This document shows positions 49,782-58,834 of a stretch of 64,000 nucleotides of DNA, in pieces (the stretch's first letter is position 1; each line of letters starts with the position of its first letter). Where the stretch lies: positions 1-64,000 of the forward strand of contig DASXVO010000033.1 of the NCBI GenBank assembly GCA_036504215.1, in the 5' to 3' direction. The DNA is from Vicinamibacterales bacterium (GTDB lineage Bacteria > Acidobacteriota > Vicinamibacteria > Vicinamibacterales > Fen-181). The notes under the pieces are model-generated. The model was not told the origin of the DNA. It made no database searches and saw nothing but the letters and a program-made list of their open reading frames with translations. Made by a program: the position numbers and the translations under genes.

Positions 49782-50264
49782 TCAGTGAGTGACCGTACCG
49801 GCGAGCGTGCGGTAGGCGTCGCAGACGCTCGCGAAGGCGCGGGCGAGGCGGGCGCGTTCCTGGTCGCCGGACCCGGGGTGGCGATCCGGGTGAAACTTGC
49901 GGGCAAGAGCCCTAAACGCGCTCTTGACCTCGGCGTCCGTGAAATCGGCGTGGAGCGACTGAGCTCCCATCCCGCGGAGGCAGTCGAGCGCCTGCTGCTC
50001 GGTGGCTGAAAGGTGCCGAACTGGCCGTCTGGGCGGTTGTGGCGGCTCGTATGCCGGAAACCAGGTCGGCCTACCCGGCTGAGAAGACAACCGGCCTGCG
50101 TCTGCGGTGAAACCGCTGAGGAAATCACCGAACAGGAACACCGGTTGCGGGCTCGGGCGCCATGATGCTGAGGGGGCGTTGGTGGTCCTTGGCGAAGACC
50201 AGGCGAAGCTGTCGTCATTCAGCTTCTCGTCGAGGATCCGTCCGAAGGTCACTCCAGCCCGCAT
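49782..50264 (-). CDS. J-domain protein
   Basis: 160 residues. A Pro-rich N-terminal half, then a C-terminal J domain: DAEVKSAFRALARKFHPDRH contains the HPD that stimulates Hsp70. No zinc-finger or substrate domains, so it is a specialised J protein; DnaK is not in the window. The start at 50264 has GGGAGG upstream; the frame could run to 50351 across the divergent methyltransferase start, which is unlikely. Confidence 0.85.
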   Translation of the reverse strand: MRAGVTFGRILDEKLNDDSFAWSSPRTTNAPSASWRPSPQPVFLFGDFLSGFTADAGRLSSQPGRPTWFPAYEPPQPPRRPVRHLSATEQQALDCLRGMGAQSLHADFTDAEVKSAFRALARKFHPDRHPGSGDQERARLARAFASVCDAYRTLAGTVTH

Positions 50265-50394
50265 GCCCTCCCAATCGGCCCTGCGGGTCCGAGCTTGAGC
50301 CGCGCATCGGCGTGATACCCTGTTCGCGAAAACCGTCGTGCTGGTTTGCATCGGTCATCCTCGTGACGACGGTGCCAGCTTCAGGAGGCGTGTG

Positions 50395-51422: not shown

Positions 51423-53114
51423 CTACCGCCTCCCGCCCACCACCGCGCGGAGTGCGCGCAGACGGATGTCCAGCTCTTCGGGCGTCATCGAGGCGTATTT
51501 TGGCGGCAGCAGTCGCCGGCTCGATGCCTCGAATACTGCCAGTAGTTCCATATAGTCGAGCAATTCCTGGTCCCGGCTCGGGAAATAGTCGGCCGCCGCG
51601 CGCGCGAGGTGGTCGGCCGTCACCTCCGCGTCCCCGCCCGCCTCCCGCGCGGCATCGTCGTTCGCCATGAGGATGACGGCTTCGACGTCCGCGTTGCTGT
51701 AGCCGACGAGTTTCTGGGAGAACTGCGCGCGGATCGGCGCGAGGTCCACCGAGGTCGTGATCTTGTTCTTCCGGAGGAGCGCGCGCGCCACCTGCTCGAC
51801 TTCCTCCGCGGTCTGCGAGTAGAGGAACGGAATCTTCCGGTCGAGGCGGCCTGCACGCTTCAGATCGACGTCGAGCTTGTCGGGCCGGTTCGTCATCACG
51901 AGGAACAGGATGCGCCCCCGGTTCGACGTGTCCGACATGAACTCCTTGATCCTCGCGATGACACGCGACGAGGTGCCGCCATCGCCGTCGCCGTCCGTGT
52001 TGCCGAACGCGCGGTCCCCCTCGTCGATGATGACGACCACCTGGCCGATCGCTTTGATGACGGTCAGGATCTTCTCGAGGTTGCCCTCGGTCGCCCCCAC
52101 CCACTTCGACCGGAAGTTCTTCAGCTTGATCGTCGTCAGGCCGCATTCCTTCGCAAACGCCTCGGCCACGAAGGTCTTGCCGGTGCCCATCGGACCGGTG
52201 AAGAGGATGCCCATCGGCACGCGGCTGGTGCGACCCTCGCGGATGTTGTCGGCAAGGACGAGGAGGTCCTTCTTCACCTCCTCCATGCCGCCCACGACCT
52301 CGAAGCCGTGCTCGGGCTCGACGAACTCGACGAGGCTGAAGCACTCACGCTCGAGGATCTCCCGCTTGCGGCGGGCAATCAGGCGGTCGGCCTCCTGGCG
52401 GGCAACGTCGGCTACCGACGCGGGTGAAGGCCCGGCCGGCCCGGGCGAGAGGATCGACGCCAGTTGAATCGCCTTGAGTCCGGCCGTTGTTTCCGCGTAA
52501 CGGTCCACGTCCTTGTCGCTCAGTCTCGCGTCGGCCAGGCGTGCGGCTGCGCGCCGCGTCTCAAGGTCCGGCATCGGGATCTCGAGGACGCCGACCTTGG
52601 GATTGGAGATGATCTTCGGCGAGAGCTCGCTGAGGTTCTCGGTCACGAGCAGCACGACGTTGTCGCCCTTGTCGATTTCTGGCAGGAACGACCACCGCTG
52701 CAACGTGATGACCGCGCCGCGATCGCCATCGGCCTGGAACGCCGGGTCGCCGGCCGGTGCGATGGCCTCCGCGTACTCGAGGATCACCGCGACCTTCGAC
52801 CCGCCAATCAGGACCCGCTCGAGCGCGGCCAGGGCTCTCGGTTTCTCGGTGGCGGTCAGCGCCTCGTCCAGCGCGCCGACACCCGGCTCCCGCCTGGCGA
52901 ACCGAATGCCGGTCGCGAGGTTGTACACCGCGATCGTCTGACGCGTCTCCTTCAGCAGGACGTCGGTGAGGAAGTCGGTCAGCGTGAGCATCCGCTGTTC
53001 GTGCACCACGGCGTCGAACACGTTGCCGTGGAGGACGAACATCGACGCTTCGCCGCGCAGGTATCGGCGCCGCAGGTCCTCGGCCCAGGACGGGAGGAGA
53101 CGCGTATCGCTCAT
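51423..53114 (-). CDS. AAA ATPase, two-half (Ycf46/Vps4-like), of the PspA/ABC cluster
   Basis: 563 residues. Residues 1-250 look like an AAA-like half without a P-loop ([13 protein letters not shown] at ~108, [16 protein letters not shown] at ~153). Residues 270-500 are a full AAA module: Walker A GPMGTGKT at 307-314, Walker B VVIIDEGD at 360-367, and Arg fingers in [12 protein letters not shown] at ~419. The order resembles Ycf46-type proteins. It starts 9 bases after the membrane coiled-coil gene and is last of seven same-strand genes that include PspA. By analogy with Vps4 acting on ESCRT-III, it could disassemble PspA polymers; that is a hypothesis. Confidence 0.85.
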
Positions 53115-53123
53115 GGCGGATCC

Positions 53124-54014
53124 CTAGAGAGTGCCCAGTACGGCCTCGGTCTCGAGGGCCGTCTGGCGAATCGACTCGACGCCGTCGAGGAGCTCGTTGA
53201 GCTGCCCCGAGAGCTGTTGGGGTGACTGCATCGTGACGATCTGGTCGGCAATGAGCTGGAAGGAATTCTCGATTAGATCGAGCTGCCCGCGCGCCACCTC
53301 GAGGTAGCGGCGGATTTCCTGCATCTTCTCGAGGCGCTTCAGGATGATGGCCAGGTTCTTCTTCGCGAGGTCGATGGTCGGCTCGCCGTCCTTCGCGAGC
53401 TTGATGTCCCGCTCGAGCCGCGAGCGGTCGGCGTCGAGCGAGACGACGTCCACCGACTGCAGGTACGACTCGTAGCGAGCGGAGGTGACCGCCATCTCGA
53501 TGAACGCCTCCACGAGCTTGTCGGTCTTCTTCAACTCGGCGCGCAGCAGATCGCCCGTCAACGACGGGTTTTGCGCGGCCAATCGCTGGATCTCGGCTTG
53601 GCGGTAGGTCAGGTCCTCGACGCGCGTTCGTTCGCGTTCGCCGAGGCCCTGCACGCGCAGGGCGCGCTCGCGGTCCTCCGCGTCCCGCCTGAGTTGCTCG
53701 AACTTCGGGTCCCAGACGAACCGCTTGAGGAGCACCGAGTCGGCATTCACCAGCCAGATCGTCTCGAGGCCGAGGGTGGCGAGCGCCAGAATCGGGTTGA
53801 CGGTCAGGACTGCCGCCCCCAGTCCGCCGACGAGCAGCGACAGGTTGAACGGGTTGACGAACGCCCACTTGTGGTAGGTCGGCTTGTCGGGCACGGCTGC
53901 CGGTGCCGGGGACGCGGGAGTCGCGGACACCGCCGCCGGCCGCCGGGCAGACGAAGGAATGGGCGGCGGATTCACACGCGATGCGGACGGCTTCGGCCGG
54001 TCGGGCGTCGGCAT
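53124..54014 (-). CDS. Unknown membrane-hairpin / coiled-coil protein of the PspA/ABC cluster
   Basis: 296 residues. A Pro/Ala/Ser-rich N-terminus (1-45), one hydrophobic hairpin or long span at ~57-90 (FNLSLLVGGLGAAVLTVNPI), then about 180 residues of heptad-patterned helix ending at the C-terminus. No catalytic motif seen. Packed between the ABC ATPase (9-base gap) and the AAA ATPase (9-base gap), so it works with them. The topology suits an adaptor that ties the membrane to the AAA or PspA proteins. I do not recognise the family. Confidence 0.75.
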   Translation of the reverse strand: MPTPDRPKPSASRVNPPPIPSSARRPAAVSATPASPAPAAVPDKPTYHKWAFVNPFNLSLLVGGLGAAVLTVNPILALATLGLETIWLVNADSVLLKRFVWDPKFEQLRRDAEDRERALRVQGLGERERTRVEDLTYRQAEIQRLAAQNPSLTGDLLRAELKKTDKLVEAFIEMAVTSARYESYLQSVDVVSLDADRSRLERDIKLAKDGEPTIDLAKKNLAIILKRLEKMQEIRRYLEVARGQLDLIENSFQLIADQIVTMQSPQQLSGQLNELLDGVESIRQTALETEAVLGTL

Positions 54015-54023
54015 GGGCTCATT

Positions 54024-54821
54024 CTATGCGGGCTCGGTCGCCGGAGCGTAGAGCATCTCGAGGAGTTTCTTCTCCACGGCCCGGAACTCGTTCGACGACT
54101 TCAGGGCGATGTCCCGCACCTGGAAGAAGGGCACGTCCACGCGGTGCAGGATGCGCGCTGGCCGCGGAGAGAGCACGTAGACGGTGTCGGCCAGGTAGAC
54201 GGCCTCCGACACGTCGTGGGTCACGAACAGGATCGTGTTGTCCTCGGTCCGCGAGACGTCGAGCAGCAGCCCCTGCATCTCCCACCGCGTGTAGGGATCG
54301 AGCGCGCCGAACGGCTCATCCATCAGGACGACGCGCGGCTTGTTGATGAGCGTTCGCGCGATCGCCACGCGCTGCTTCATCCCGCCCGACAGGTCCTTCG
54401 GGTAGCGGTCGGCGAACTCCTCCAGGCCGACCGCCTTCAGGTAGTGCGTGGACTGCCCGCGACGCTCGGCGCGCGGCACGCCCTGGAGCCGCAGGCCGTA
54501 CTCGACGTTCTCACGCACGGTCAGCCAGCCGAACGAGGTGTACGCCTGGAACACCATGCCGCGGTCGCGCCCAACCTCGTCGACCCTCTTGCCTTCCAGT
54601 TGCACCTCGCCCGAAGTCGGCGCCAGCAGGCCGGCCACGGCCTTCAGGATCGTGGACTTGCCGCAGCCCGAAGGCCCAAGGAACACGACAATCTCGCCGC
54701 AGCCCGGCTTGTCGTGCACGTCGAGCGAGACGTCGCGCACGGCCTCGGTGCGGCGTCCTCCCCGATCGATGTAGGTGATGCACAGCTTGTCGAGACGGAG
54801 CTTCACGGCCAATTCGCTCAT
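54024..54821 (-). CDS. ABC transporter ATPase, nitrate/sulfonate/taurine type
   Basis: 265 residues. Walker A FLGPSGCGKSTIL, Q-loop in MVFQAYTSFGWLTV, signature LSGGMKQRVAIAR, Walker B VVLMDEPFGALDP, and H-loop VTHDVSEAV. Matches NrtD/SsuB/TauB-type ATPases, which work with a two-permease dimer and a substrate-binding protein. The start ATG 54821 overlaps the permease stop (ATGA), so the two are translated together. The long frame to 55097 is discarded because it is only antisense-like to the permease. Confidence 0.94.
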   Translation of the reverse strand: MSELAVKLRLDKLCITYIDRGGRRTEAVRDVSLDVHDKPGCGEIVVFLGPSGCGKSTILKAVAGLLAPTSGEVQLEGKRVDEVGRDRGMVFQAYTSFGWLTVRENVEYGLRLQGVPRAERRGQSTHYLKAVGLEEFADRYPKDLSGGMKQRVAIARTLINKPRVVLMDEPFGALDPYTRWEMQGLLLDVSRTEDNTILFVTHDVSEAVYLADTVYVLSPRPARILHRVDVPFFQVRDIALKSSNEFRAVEKKLLEMLYAPATEPA

Positions 54822-55615
54822 GCGGCCTTCTCCCGCCAGCGGAACAAGATGCTGGCACCGGCGCGAATCAGGCCGTCGGTGGCGAGGCCGATGCCGCCAA
54901 TCACCAGCAGGCCGGCAAACGACCAGGATGCCTTCTGGTGGGTCCGCGCCAACTCGACCATGTAGCCCAGGCCGTGTTCGGGATTGACCGCTTCGGCGAG
55001 GATCACGTAGGTCCACGAGATCGCGTTCATCACCCGGAACGAGTCGAAGATCTCCGGCAGCGCCGCCGGCAGCAGCACCGTTCGCACCGCCTGCCACTTC
55101 GTCGCGCCGAGCGTCAGCGCCGTCTGGACCAGTTCCTCCGGCACCGCGCGGATTGCCGTGACCACGACGGGGAGGAGGTAGACGAAGACGCCCAGGAACA
55201 GGAAGGCGACCTTCTGGGACTCGTAGATCCCGAACCAGAGGATCAGCAGTGGAATGAACGCGGAGATCGGCATGTAGCGCAGCGGCGCCATGATGGGCTC
55301 GAAGATCCGATTGACCGGCTCGAACGCGCCCATCAGGATGCCGAGCGGCAGCGCCAGCGCGGACGCCAGCGCGAATGCGACCAGGATGCGCCTGGTCGAC
55401 ACCCAGATCGCCTGCCCGAGGTCGTACTGCAGGAACAGTTGCAGCGTCCCGCGCACGACCTCGCTCGGCGAGGGTAGGAAGTCAGCCGGGGCCAGTTGGC
55501 CGTACGAGATGACGCACCAGGCTCCGAGCACCAGGGTCGGTGCCACGAAGCCCAGGACGACCGCCAGCGGCCGCGGCAACGGTGCGCGGAGGGAGAACAA
55601 GTCGGAACGCTTCAT
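54818..55615 (-). CDS. ABC transporter permease, nitrate/sulfonate/taurine type
   Basis: 265 residues, about six spans. The EAA loop is visible in VQTALTLGATKWQAVRTVLLPAA, the contact to the ATPase. The preceding binding protein (543 residues) supplies the substrate domain. The upstream gap of 83 bases contains the CAGGAG 7-bp repeats. Substrate unknown: candidates are sulfonates or small anions, but the binding protein is atypical. Confidence 0.92.
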   Translation of the reverse strand: MKRSDLFSLRAPLPRPLAVVLGFVAPTLVLGAWCVISYGQLAPADFLPSPSEVVRGTLQLFLQYDLGQAIWVSTRRILVAFALASALALPLGILMGAFEPVNRIFEPIMAPLRYMPISAFIPLLILWFGIYESQKVAFLFLGVFVYLLPVVVTAIRAVPEELVQTALTLGATKWQAVRTVLLPAALPEIFDSFRVMNAISWTYVILAEAVNPEHGLGYMVELARTHQKASWSFAGLLVIGGIGLATDGLIRAGASILFRWREKAA

Positions 55616-55698: not shown

Positions 55699-57330
55699 TC
55701 ACTGCGAGGCCAGCACCACCTTGATGTCGGTGCGGCGGTTCAACTGGCGTCCGGTCTCGGTCGCGTTCGGAGCCACCGGGTTCGCCGAGCCGTGGCCGAT
55801 CGTCTGGAAGCGGGTCGCCTGGATGTTCGGGAAATTCTTGAGCACGTAGTTCTTCACCGCCAACGCCCGCCGCTCGGACAGCGTCATGTTGGCCGTCGGC
55901 GACCCGGTCGAGTCGGTGTTCCCTTCGACTCGCAGGTACGTATTCCCGAACGACGTCATCGTCTCGCCCAGCGCGTCGAGTACGAAGTACGACCCCGCCA
56001 TGATCTCGTCCGATCCCGGCGTGAAGTGGACCTGGATCTCCTTGTTGATGATCGCGCGGTCCTGCGGTGACGCCGGCTTGGCGGCCAGTTTCGGCTCCTC
56101 GACCTTCTGGCCGGGATACATCACGGCCAGTGACGAGATGAACCTCGTGTCTGCCCAGTCCCTGCCGGATACCGGCCGCGTCACCAGGCCCTTCTTCCGC
56201 CAGATCACGAAGGCCGTGTCGAACAGCGTGTCGTAGTGGGCCTTGCCGCCCGTGAGGCCGTAGAATTGCGCGTTGTCCGCGTACGGCGTCAGCTTGAGAC
56301 CCGACAACATGCCGGAGACCGTGTCGTTGTCGAGCTTCAGCGCGCGGCCGACGAGCGCGTACGACGAGGCGGGGTCGCGCTTGATCGCCTCGATGCCCTC
56401 GAACCATCCCTGGACGAAATCACGCACCGTCCCCGGCGCCTGGTCGATGAGCTGCTGGCGTGCGACCAGCGTGTCGGCGATGATGTTGGTTGCCGCGGTC
56501 GTCGACACGAGGACATGCGCCTCGTCGCCACGAGCCGTCACTGCCGCCGACAGATCCGGCTCCCACGTCACCGCCGCGTCCACCTGCCGGGCCTTGAACA
56601 TCGCGGCTGCGGCCGGCGCGTCCTGCGTGAAGATGATGTTCTTCTCCACGACGTTGCGGTCCTCGGACGACAGGCCGGACTGCGCCAGCAGGTACAGCAG
56701 CAGGAAGTGCGACGGCGTGAACTGCGTGCACGCCACCTTCCGCCCCTTCAGATCCTCGATCGATTTCAGGGTCGCGAGCGAGACGATGCCGTCACCGCCG
56801 CGCGACCAGTCCTGCATGATGACCGACTTGGCCTTCTGCCCCTGCTCCTCGAGAATCGACGCCTCGCGGGCCCAGTTGTCCACCGTATCCCACATGATGT
56901 CGATGTCGCCCTTGCGGAACGCCGCCAGCTTGGCGGCCGGGTCCTCGAGCAGCACGAACTTCACGTCGAGACCGAACTTCTTCTTGTAGGCAGACGCCGG
57001 ATTGGGGTCCATGCCGCCGTTGAACACGATGCCCGGCGAATGGCCGGCCCACGTGTTGATGCCGACAACCAGCGGACGCGACAGCTTTCCGCCAGTTGCC
57101 AGGCTCGTCGCGGTGACGCCCGTCGATCCGATGCCCCGTTCGGGATCGGCCGGTGCGTTCTTGAGCGCGTCGAAGTCGCTCGCCGCCGTCTTGTCCGCCT
57201 GCGTGGCCGCCGGTTTGTCGCCCACGGCCCATTGCTTCACGTCGGCACCCTTGTAGTGCCAGAACGCGTACCCGACGACCGCCACCACCACCACCGTGAC
57301 GAACAACTTCGCAAAAGGCGTGAGTTTCAT
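55699..57330 (-). CDS. Membrane-anchored ABC substrate-binding protein fused to OmpA domain
   Basis: 543 residues. The N-terminal anchor (MKLTPFAKLFVTVVVVAVVG) has no clear signal cleavage site. Residues ~85-420 are an NMT1/SsuA-type binding domain (VVGINTWAGHSPGIVFNGG, AAVTWEPDLSAAV). Residues 430-543 are an OmpA C-terminal domain with NTDSTGS, LSERRALAVKNYV and LNRRTDIKVV, which binds diaminopimelate in peptidoglycan. So one end is in the inner membrane, the other on the cell wall, and the ligand domain between. Ordinary binding proteins diffuse freely; this tether is unusual. AAGGAGCG precedes ATG 57330. Confidence 0.9.
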   Translation of the reverse strand: MKLTPFAKLFVTVVVVAVVGYAFWHYKGADVKQWAVGDKPAATQADKTAASDFDALKNAPADPERGIGSTGVTATSLATGGKLSRPLVVGINTWAGHSPGIVFNGGMDPNPASAYKKKFGLDVKFVLLEDPAAKLAAFRKGDIDIMWDTVDNWAREASILEEQGQKAKSVIMQDWSRGGDGIVSLATLKSIEDLKGRKVACTQFTPSHFLLLYLLAQSGLSSEDRNVVEKNIIFTQDAPAAAAMFKARQVDAAVTWEPDLSAAVTARGDEAHVLVSTTAATNIIADTLVARQQLIDQAPGTVRDFVQGWFEGIEAIKRDPASSYALVGRALKLDNDTVSGMLSGLKLTPYADNAQFYGLTGGKAHYDTLFDTAFVIWRKKGLVTRPVSGRDWADTRFISSLAVMYPGQKVEEPKLAAKPASPQDRAIINKEIQVHFTPGSDEIMAGSYFVLDALGETMTSFGNTYLRVEGNTDSTGSPTANMTLSERRALAVKNYVLKNFPNIQATRFQTIGHGSANPVAPNATETGRQLNRRTDIKVVLASQ

Positions 57331-57357: not shown

Positions 57358-58071
57358 CTAGAGCGTCTTCTGCCCTGCGGCTGCCTGCGCGGCGGCGCGC
57401 TTCGCCTTCATCTCGGCGAGTTGCTGCTTGGCCTGCGCCTCGCCGACCTGAGATCGGACGGCCGCCAGCTTCGAATCGAGCGTGGACTCGGACAGTTCCT
57501 TGCCCAGGTTGGCTTCGGCAATGGTGTTCTTGATGTGCTGACGCACGTTGTCGAGCGCCTTGACCTCGGCATCGACCGACAGACCGTCGAGCTGCTCCTG
57601 AATCTTGATGCGCGCCTGCGCCGACTGCATCTTGGCGAGCATCGACTCGCGTTCGGCCTGGAGCTTCCGGATCTCGGCCTGGACGCTGACGAGCGACGAC
57701 TTCGCGCCGTCCGCATCCCGCTGCGCGGTGTCCATCTCCGCCCGCAGGTCGGCAACCTCGGTGGCGAGCTGGTTCTTCTTCTGGAGCAGGATCAGCGCCA
57801 CATCGTCCTGGTTCGTGTCCATCGCGACGCCAAGTTCGGCGTCGGTCTGCGTCAGTTCCTTGGTGGCCTTCTGGTAGCGCTCGCTCGTATCCTCGCGGCG
57901 ACGGATGATCGCGGCGGTGGCCGCCTTCAGCCTCGAGTACTTCTCGACCATCGAGTTGATCGCGTTCTCGTAGGCGATCTCCGGATGTTCCTTCTCCACG
58001 TCGGAAATCCAGATTGAGAGAAACCCCTTCCAGAGGTTTCCGAGACGCGCAAAGAATCCTGCTCCTGCCAC
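57358..58071 (-). CDS. pspA: PspA/IM30-family membrane-remodelling protein
   Basis: 237 residues, long helices throughout: ARLGNLWKGFLSIWISDVEK (amphipathic helix 0/1), then heptad-rich helices with DAELGVAMDTNQDDVALILL and LAAVRSQVGEAQAKQQLAEM. PspA and IM30 belong to the ESCRT-III superfamily; they polymerise on and protect the inner membrane under stress. Start GTG 58071 is chosen because the conserved helix begins just after it and AAGGGGG lies upstream; the frame to 58284 adds Arg-rich noise. No PspB, PspC or PspF-type partners are adjacent. Instead it leads an ABC transporter and AAA cluster. Confidence 0.88.
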   Translation of the reverse strand: MAGAGFFARLGNLWKGFLSIWISDVEKEHPEIAYENAINSMVEKYSRLKAATAAIIRRREDTSERYQKATKELTQTDAELGVAMDTNQDDVALILLQKKNQLATEVADLRAEMDTAQRDADGAKSSLVSVQAEIRKLQAERESMLAKMQSAQARIKIQEQLDGLSVDAEVKALDNVRQHIKNTIAEANLGKELSESTLDSKLAAVRSQVGEAQAKQQLAEMKAKRAAAQAAAGQKTL

Positions 58072-58168: not shown

Positions 58169-58834
58169 CTAGGCGGACCCCGGCGACGACGGATCGTGGA
58201 GGCGCGGGGAGGCCTGCACCACGCGCGCCACCGCCTCCTGGCCGAAGAACTCCAGAACCCGCTGGATGTCCAGCTTCCTGGCATTGCAGGCGACCGTGAC
58301 GCCCTGCTGCTGGGTGACCTGCTCCTCCATCCGCGTCTTCAGCTTCTTGATTTCGTCCTCGAATTGCGCGATGCGGTGGTTCGACTCCTCGAGCACGCGC
58401 TCGGTGTCGCCGGCATTCTTGCGAATGTAGCCTTCGAGCGCCTGGATCTCGGCAACGCCAGCTTCGATGATGTTGTCGATCGGCACACCGAACGCCTTGA
58501 GGGAGGCCTCGACGATCTGTTTCTTGACCGGCACGGGTGTCTCGGCCGGCAGACTGCCAAGCAAGTCCCGGGCCTTGCCGACACGCTCCCGCTCGACCGC
58601 GTCGATGCCGGCGGCATCGAACACCTCGTCGAACGCCACGTCACCGCCCTTCGGCGCGGGCGGCTCGTTCTTGAAGAACACTGGCGCCGGCTGTTCGGCG
58701 GCTGCGGACGCTATTACGGAGGCGTCGGCGTCAGCGGCGCCCGAGGAGGCCGCCGCCGTGGTCTCGGCCGGCTCGCCGTCCTGCACGATGAACCAGCCGA
58801 GGACGGTGGAGCCCCAGTTCTTCTTGTCGGTCAT
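58169..58834 (-). CDS. Unknown coiled-coil protein, first gene of the PspA/ABC cluster
   Basis: 221 residues. MTDKKNWGSTVLGWFIV at the N-terminus, an Ala/Glu-rich linker, a globular-looking middle (FDEVFDAAGIDAVERERVGK, VPVKKQIVEASLKAFG), and a coiled coil at ~130-190 (SNHRIAQFEDEIKKLKTRM). The CNARKLDIQRVLEFF tail is distinctive. GAGG precedes ATG 58834. It begins the seven-gene row, 97 bases from pspA. I do not recognise the family; it is a good candidate for a PspA partner or regulator. Confidence 0.75.
   Translation of the reverse strand: MTDKKNWGSTVLGWFIVQDGEPAETTAAASSGAADADASVIASAAAEQPAPVFFKNEPPAPKGGDVAFDEVFDAAGIDAVERERVGKARDLLGSLPAETPVPVKKQIVEASLKAFGVPIDNIIEAGVAEIQALEGYIRKNAGDTERVLEESNHRIAQFEDEIKKLKTRMEEQVTQQQGVTVACNARKLDIQRVLEFFGQEAVARVVQASPRLHDPSSPGSA

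Follow-up and report, generated by a model that had tools for sequence, protein, structure and literature searches.

A tandem AAA ATPase probably paired with C-terminally tagged PspA proteins in bacteria

Introduction

PspA belongs to the ESCRT-III superfamily, and its association with a protein of two AAA domains, of which the N-terminal copy is inactive, is described in section 18 of Ravi et al. 2024 (PMC11237479). The operon reported in that text also encodes an ABC ATPase, a permease and a PBPB-OmpA protein (example OGG56892.1), and ATP-dependent membrane remodelling is proposed there for the two-AAA protein. The discussion of PMC8281802 raises as an open question whether a Vps4-like ATPase remodels bacterial PspA/Vipp1 polymers, and in the passages of PMC9239133 reached by the search terms no AAA partner was found. 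Vps4 itself remodels ESCRT-III and is thought to be recruited via its MIT domain (PMC11746142). Here we analyzed a stretch of 64,000 nucleotides from a Vicinamibacterales bacterium of the Acidobacteriota (contig DASXVO010000033.1, positions 1 to 64,000; hereafter the window), which encodes a tandem AAA ATPase and a PspA in one run of genes (Table 1).

The window shares with the family of Ravi et al. 2024 the two AAA domains, the inactive N-terminal copy and the PspA encoded nearby; judged by gene order, it also shares the ABC ATPase, the permease and the PBP-OmpA gene of the operon. A partner of the kind that an earlier sequence-only reading of the window had proposed for PspA is already in print, together with the AAA-PspA association itself (PMC11237479); new here are a tag on the PspA tail and the co-occurrence of both proteins at the level of genomes. 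No mention of a C-terminal PspA tag was found in the passages of PMC11237479 that were covered, nor of the PspA tail in the literature searched (supplements and most subscription journals outside the scope). Taken from sequence comparisons, the neighbourhood, the genome-level co-occurrence and the tag strongly support a functional tie between the AAA ATPase and PspA. We propose, with a probability of roughly 0.6, that the AAA protein is a motor reserved for a particular type of PspA, which would pull tagged subunits from PspA/ESCRT-III filaments.

Results

The AAA ATPase combines a degenerate and an active half

The PF00004 AAA profile matches residues 303-430 of the 563-residue protein (E 1.2e-26). 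We scored motif conservation in 58 aligned family members and found a G-x4-GK[ST] P-loop in 58/58 C-terminal halves and in 0/58 N-terminal halves, whose former P-loop position instead holds N31 and D34 in all 58. Walker B residues D364-E365 and the Arg-finger position R423 are likewise kept in 58/58, pore-loop W338 in 55/58, and R426, which the window protein has, in 30/58. An AlphaFold model built with the 58 sequences (predicted local distance difference test, pLDDT, 91.2; predicted template modelling score, pTM, 0.86) displays two AAA folds. These data bear out the sequence-only reading, which had noted intact Walker A, Walker B and Arg fingers in the C-terminal half and a first half lacking a P-loop.

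Foldseek returned p97, Cdc48 and Rix7 as best matches covering both halves. A second structural aligner gave Z 23.6 for p97 (5c18_A; 464 residues aligned, root mean square deviation 9.0), Z 22.8 for a Pex1/Pex6 chain (8u0v_A; 489 residues, root mean square deviation 4.2) and Z 22.6 for Vps4 (3eih_A), the latter across 267 residues of the second half. Because the model aligns with tandem AAA proteins across both halves, we regard the N-terminal half as a degenerate AAA domain.

The AAA gene and pspA share neighbourhoods and genomes

A profile search recovered a single full-length member of the AAA family in this genome, and PF04012 a single PspA, that of the window. Scanning a species-genome collection with a ten-member AAA alignment yielded at least 532 relatives, of which the best 80 loci were kept and their neighbour genes detected by iterated profiles. 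Named carriers of the AAA include Hydrogenophaga taeniospiralis, Rhodoferax ferrireducens and Tahibacter harae. Of the 80 loci, 52 had PspA; these span several phyla, and their gene order varies. Other neighbours were a coiled-coil protein (45 loci), a binding protein (SBP) with an OmpA domain (37), an ABC ATPase (29) and a permease (28). The acidobacterial order reads unknown-PspA-SBP-permease-ATPase-coiled coil-AAA and the proteobacterial order SBP-permease-ATPase-coiled coil-PspA-AAA, with pspA directly upstream of the AAA gene in many proteobacterial relatives. One group of loci, mostly Myxococcota by title, showed no PspA within the fetched stretch, and inspection of the upstream 3 kb of 14 such loci revealed other genes or no clear gene ahead of the AAA gene. 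In two loci with titles of Klebsiella pneumoniae metagenome-assembled genomes (L053, L081) the AAAs group with those from records of Myxococcota title; the Klebsiella titles look wrong.

Of the 28 loci lacking PspA, 25 were followed to the whole genome (L030, L033 and L038, all short stretches, were not), and PspA was present in 25/25. We then turned to 199 genomes of Acidobacteriota, accepting AAA matches at E <= 1e-40 and PspA as PF04012 at E <= 0.001. The AAA was detected in 29 genomes, PspA in 57 and both in 25, one of which (G210) rests on a weak match; PspA accompanied 25/29 AAA-positive vs 32/170 AAA-negative genomes (Fisher 3e-12, a value which, like the other Fisher values given here, overstates the effect because related genomes are not independent). 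A distance of 1.0-1.2 Mb on a single contig separates the two genes in G236, G174 and G199. Among 146 Myxococcota genomes (AAA at E <= 1e-60) 92 had the AAA, 115 PspA and 92 both, so that PspA was found in 92/92 AAA-positive vs 23/54 AAA-negative genomes (Fisher 2e-17); this co-occurrence is not linkage-independent, because a spacing of 10-12 kb on a single contig is common (for example G562, G608, G586). The survey of 150 Pseudomonadota genomes, the phylum of Hydrogenophaga, found the AAA solely in the centre genome, and a survey of the phylum to which G268 belongs (its record bears the title Cyanobacteria bacterium RYN_339) found it in 7/59 genomes at E < 1e-200.

Most AAA-paired PspA proteins carry a C-terminal tag

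Acidobacteriota, Proteobacteria and part of the Myxococcota served to define a strict tag, which is either a C-terminal [KR]x[LMI] or a [KR]x[LMI]GP close to the C-terminus. For each AAA/PspA pair the best-scoring PspA of the locus or genome was used and paralogues were set aside. The 80 loci provided 51 intact linked PspAs, after L026 (PspA split over two frames), L030, L033 and L038 had been left out, and K/R-x-[L/M/I] was terminal in 48 and slightly inward in 3 of them. Between it and the last helix runs a linker of variable length that is rich in Ala, Gln and Gly. A tagged PspA was also present in 24/25 followed genomes. The second tag form, in which [KR]x[LMI] is followed by G, mostly GP, with extra residues behind, is found mainly in a separate AAA clade. 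Altogether 97 pairs were compared (97 rows, 94 of them different, as three repeat genomes met twice): 79 terminal, 14 GP, 3 with G but no P and 1 without a tag, giving the strict tag in 93/97. On the tree of the 97 AAAs the tag type changed label 3 times vs a shuffled mean of 16.8. The PspAs of L233-L235, which fall under the profile filter, end without a strict tag.

Controls behaved differently. Among 70 PspAs from Acidobacteriota and Pseudomonadota without the AAA, the terminal form occurred in none and the GP form in one, that of G112, which is a short contig and shares its genus with the AAA-positive G124 and G148. Within Acidobacteriota the strict tag was found in 20/22 AAA-positive vs 1/29 AAA-negative genomes (Fisher 6e-11). 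This table (20/2/1/28) was compiled by reading tail listings, with the window counted as one AAA-positive genome; G104 (masked), G109 (contig end), G210, G140 and G192 (weak matches) and G263 (cut by a contig end, yet included among the 70 controls) were left out. PspA paralogues from ten AAA-positive genomes had the strict tag in 0/16 cases. We also examined 67 non-redundant terminal-type tails, for which only positions -3 and -1 had been used in the selection. At position -2, which was left free, 47/67 have T, and the entropy is 1.43 bits vs 1.9-2.8 bits at positions -4 to -15.

The phylum of G268 lay outside the defining sample apart from G268 itself, which had been seen before. PspA was found within the fetched stretch in 5/7 AAA-positive genomes. 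Three of the four new PspAs end in KTM, KTI and KTL, two of these with a second KxLG upstream, and the fourth has RQLG.

Exceptions and a wider tag

Besides the overstated Fisher values and the linkage in Myxococcota, the following observations weigh against a strict pairing of motor and tagged PspA. Four AAA-positive Acidobacteriota genomes (G089, G096, G099 and G186), all with divergent AAAs, gave no PF04012 match. The PspA of the AAA-positive G075 ends in QKTT, and the AAA-positive G146 and G265 show no tag. The clustering of tag types on the AAA tree is also expected from descent. The strict tag was found in just 13/62 further AAA-positive Myxococcota genomes, many of them close relatives; most of their PspA ends read EKTIGKKVEVK-like, the divergent ones KALGPE or K[DEN]LGPAT. 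As a universal rule the strict tag failed in Myxococcota, and it was replaced by [KR][TSQNAED][LMIV] with either G or the end of the protein behind it, a wider tag that was written post hoc, with these data in view. The wider tag matches 60/62 further AAA-positive genomes, with none seen in G480 (AAA on a short PspA-less contig) or G514 (divergent AAA), vs 2/21 AAA-less ones, G609 and G610, whose tails read AKTIGKK. A near-identical wide form (without D, 30-residue window) matches 10/70 AAA-less control PspAs and is thus less specific; six of the ten belong to the family f35, whose PspA lacks an AAA partner, four with a KQIG remnant and two with matches inside a helix.

Discussion

Proposed mechanism and its main rival

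We infer that the AAA protein would form rings. The inactive first ring would act as docking site and scaffold, and it would dock the tail or adaptors. Threading of flexible ends is established for AAA proteins whose pore loops are aromatic, and the active second ring with its Trp pore loop would grip the flexible PspA C-terminus via the K/R-x-[L/M/I] tag and extract subunits from membrane-bound PspA/ESCRT-III filaments, leading to recycling or remodelling of the PspA coat. Since the run of the window also encodes an ABC importer and a coiled-coil protein predicted to lie in the membrane, with both of which the motor is paired, the filaments would probably act near that transporter or envelope site. 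The binding protein of the importer bears a domain of peptidoglycan-binding type (OmpA), and together with the coiled-coil protein it may place the system at the inner membrane.

Alternatively, PspA might regulate the AAA protein, as its anchor or inhibitor at the membrane, rather than being its substrate, and the motor would act on other proteins, for instance the ABC transporter or the coiled-coil membrane protein. We consider this unlikely, though it is the best of the alternatives. A precedent comes from E. coli, in which PspF, also an AAA protein, is repressed by PspA. Furthermore, the divergent AAAs of L272, L273 and L275 adjoin SBP-ABC genes without PspA, the two-half AAA gene directly following SBP, permease and ABC ATPase, so that a transporter link is possible without PspA and weighs against our proposal; for G099 and G096 the whole genome gave no PF04012 match, and the AAA may be tied to the importer independently of PspA. 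In contrast, the 25 followed loci show neither PspA nor transporter in the fetched stretch (some of which are short), yet each genome has PspA and all but one keep it tagged. The position of the tag, at the end of a variable linker, is moreover that expected of a motor entry or docking signal.

Another divergent acidobacterial AAA clade comprises L268-L271. By eye, L268 and L270 adjoin a large protein whose repeats suggest a beta-propeller, and L270 and L271 a TPR-like protein.

Shared ancestry as a less likely reading

It is less likely still that the tail marks a clade by inheritance, or serves another protein as a degron or as a contact with the membrane, with the AAA co-occurrence reflecting shared ancestry. 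Most AAA-paired PspAs do score together on the AAA-linked profile (some GP-type ones low), as descent would have it. The PspAs of the f35 genomes (G222, G257, G243 and ten more) score with the AAA-type profile, while the genomes contain only partial AAA matches without the N-terminal half. Several of these PspAs retain KQI(G/A/S) followed by a longer tail, a remnant in keeping with ancestry, whereas the terminal or GP strict form was found in 0/13. The last three residues of the tagged tails are also better conserved than the linker preceding them, which argues against a mere clade mark. With altered tags in genomes that lack the AAA, the f35 PspAs are a natural test of the pairing.

Relation to Vps4 and other AAA proteins

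As a motor pulling on PspA, the AAA protein would resemble Vps4/CdvC in being a classical AAA with an aromatic pore loop and an ESCRT-III superfamily partner encoded nearby, and a short C-terminal motif on the filament protein is the presumed address, as in the Vps4/ESCRT-III system. Unlike Vps4/CdvC, it is a tandem protein without MIT or Vps4_C, and the PspA tag is K/R-x-[LMI], not an MIT-bound MIM. The MIT domain gave no match to the window AAA at E <= 1, and neither MIT nor Vps4_C matched any of the 58 members at E <= 0.01. Among the NCBIfam matches listed the nearest named profile was CDC48 (80.8 bits, cut-off 802.65), followed by FtsH and PAN, all far under their cut-offs, and the CdvC equivalog model reached 53.7 bits (cut-off 650). 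Membership in the Vps4 family is thereby ruled out, and of the Vps4-like partner suggested by the sequence-only reading, which had called for comparison with Vps4, Ycf46 and CbbX, the tie to PspA stands and the likeness to Vps4 is kept as an analogy: the window AAA is not a Vps4 and probably works like one. That a true Vps4/CdvC was gained from archaea is very improbable, since the absence of MIT and Vps4_C, the higher CDC48 score and an N-terminal half that is itself an AAA domain already contradict it, despite the classical AAA clade, the ESCRT-III superfamily partner and the Vps4-like SKWxG pore loop.

The tandem AAA fold is shared with Cdc48/p97, Rix7/NVL and Pex1/Pex6; unlike these, the window protein starts directly with its first half, this half lacks the P-loop throughout the family, and the context is PspA. 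PspF is likewise an AAA protein tied to PspA, but of NtrC type, with one AAA domain fused to a Fis-type HTH (PMC11237479). No CbbX model was among the matches listed (25 of 35 NCBIfam). Proteins of about 500-540 residues from the cyanobacterial phylum, presumably Ycf46-type, match the AAA model partially (from ~144-238 to ~525, best E 9e-43), leaving its first ~145 positions unmatched; the G268 genome carries both this type and a full-length AAA.

By analogy, our findings suggest that certain bacteria possess a counterpart of the motor by which ESCRT-III filaments are dismantled in human cells. We see an even chance that bacteria in four or more phyla, as judged from record titles, possess a complete ESCRT-III/ATPase pair without Vps4, in which the tail is the address and which selection keeps even when the genes are far apart. 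If true, coupling of an ESCRT-III polymer to an AAA motor would exist outside the archaeal/eukaryotic Vps4 line, and the pairing of tail and motor would be an independent counterpart of MIT-MIM. A named motor and a three-residue tail on its presumed substrate make the open question of PspA/Vipp1 remodelling experimentally simple.

The gene run of the window

The run comprises seven genes on the minus strand. Both the AAA gene and pspA are on this strand, as the sequence-only reading had stated; its placement of the AAA next to PspA holds loosely, for the same run, with four genes (~4.2 kb) between the two.

Table 1. Features of the AAA-PspA gene run in the window
Feature	Position	Strand	Remark
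Tandem AAA ATPase, 563 residues	51423..53114	-	degenerate AAA half + active classical AAA half
N-terminal P-loop-less AAA-fold half, ~residues 8-230	52425..53093	-	boundary approximate
C-terminal active AAA half, ~residues 257-530	51525..52346	-	boundary approximate
Walker A GPMGTGKT, residues 307-314	52173..52196	-	sequence
Pore loop 1 KNFRSKWVG, residues 332-340	52095..52121	-	sequence
Walker B VVIIDE, residues 360-365	52020..52037	-	sequence
Arg-finger region R423 ... R426	51837..51848	-	sequence
Coiled-coil protein, 296 residues, matching no known family	53124..54014	-	
ABC ATPase, nearest taurine-type, under curated cut-off	54024..54821	-	profile matches
ABC permease, nearest SaoP/TauC type, under curated cut-offs	54818..55615	-	profile matches
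NMT1/SsuA-type binding protein + OmpA domain fusion	55699..57330	-	N-terminal membrane helix by eye
PspA (ESCRT-III superfamily), GTG start	57358..58071	-	PF04012 E 8e-18
C-terminal K-T-L tag of PspA	57361..57369	-	sequence
MIM1-like stretch ESTLDSKLAAVR close to PspA end	57454..57489	-	sequence
221-residue protein, family unassigned	58169..58834	-	first gene of acidobacterial version of run

The window PspA passes the PspA_IM30 profile (65.2 bits, cut-off 33.9, residues 6-225). Its MIM1-like stretch recurs in 35/97 AAA-paired and 0/57 AAA-less PspAs; we did not use it as evidence, as the AAA lacks MIT and descent may explain the pattern. The ATG of the ABC ATPase gene overlaps the stop of the permease gene.

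The 296-residue protein has hydrophobic helices at ~47-89 (membrane, by eye) and an antiparallel coiled coil at ~103-295. With its model (pLDDT 82) Foldseek gave no match at E <= 0.001, and whatever the second aligner matched, with Z of up to 11.7, was helical and unspecific. It was considered as a hidden second ESCRT-III; no ESCRT-III chain was among the matches listed, though the protein may have that fold. No terminal motif common to the coiled-coil protein ends was seen by eye; some betaproteobacterial ones end LKT/VKT-like (by eye).

The 221-residue protein, with a conserved start (KNWGSTVLGWF) and a conserved end (VLEFFGQEAVARVV), was present in G142 and in 11/80 loci, ten of which have acidobacterial titles, while one is from Polyangiaceae. 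The run is followed downstream, on its own strand, by a gene for a small J-domain protein (49782-50351, PF00226).
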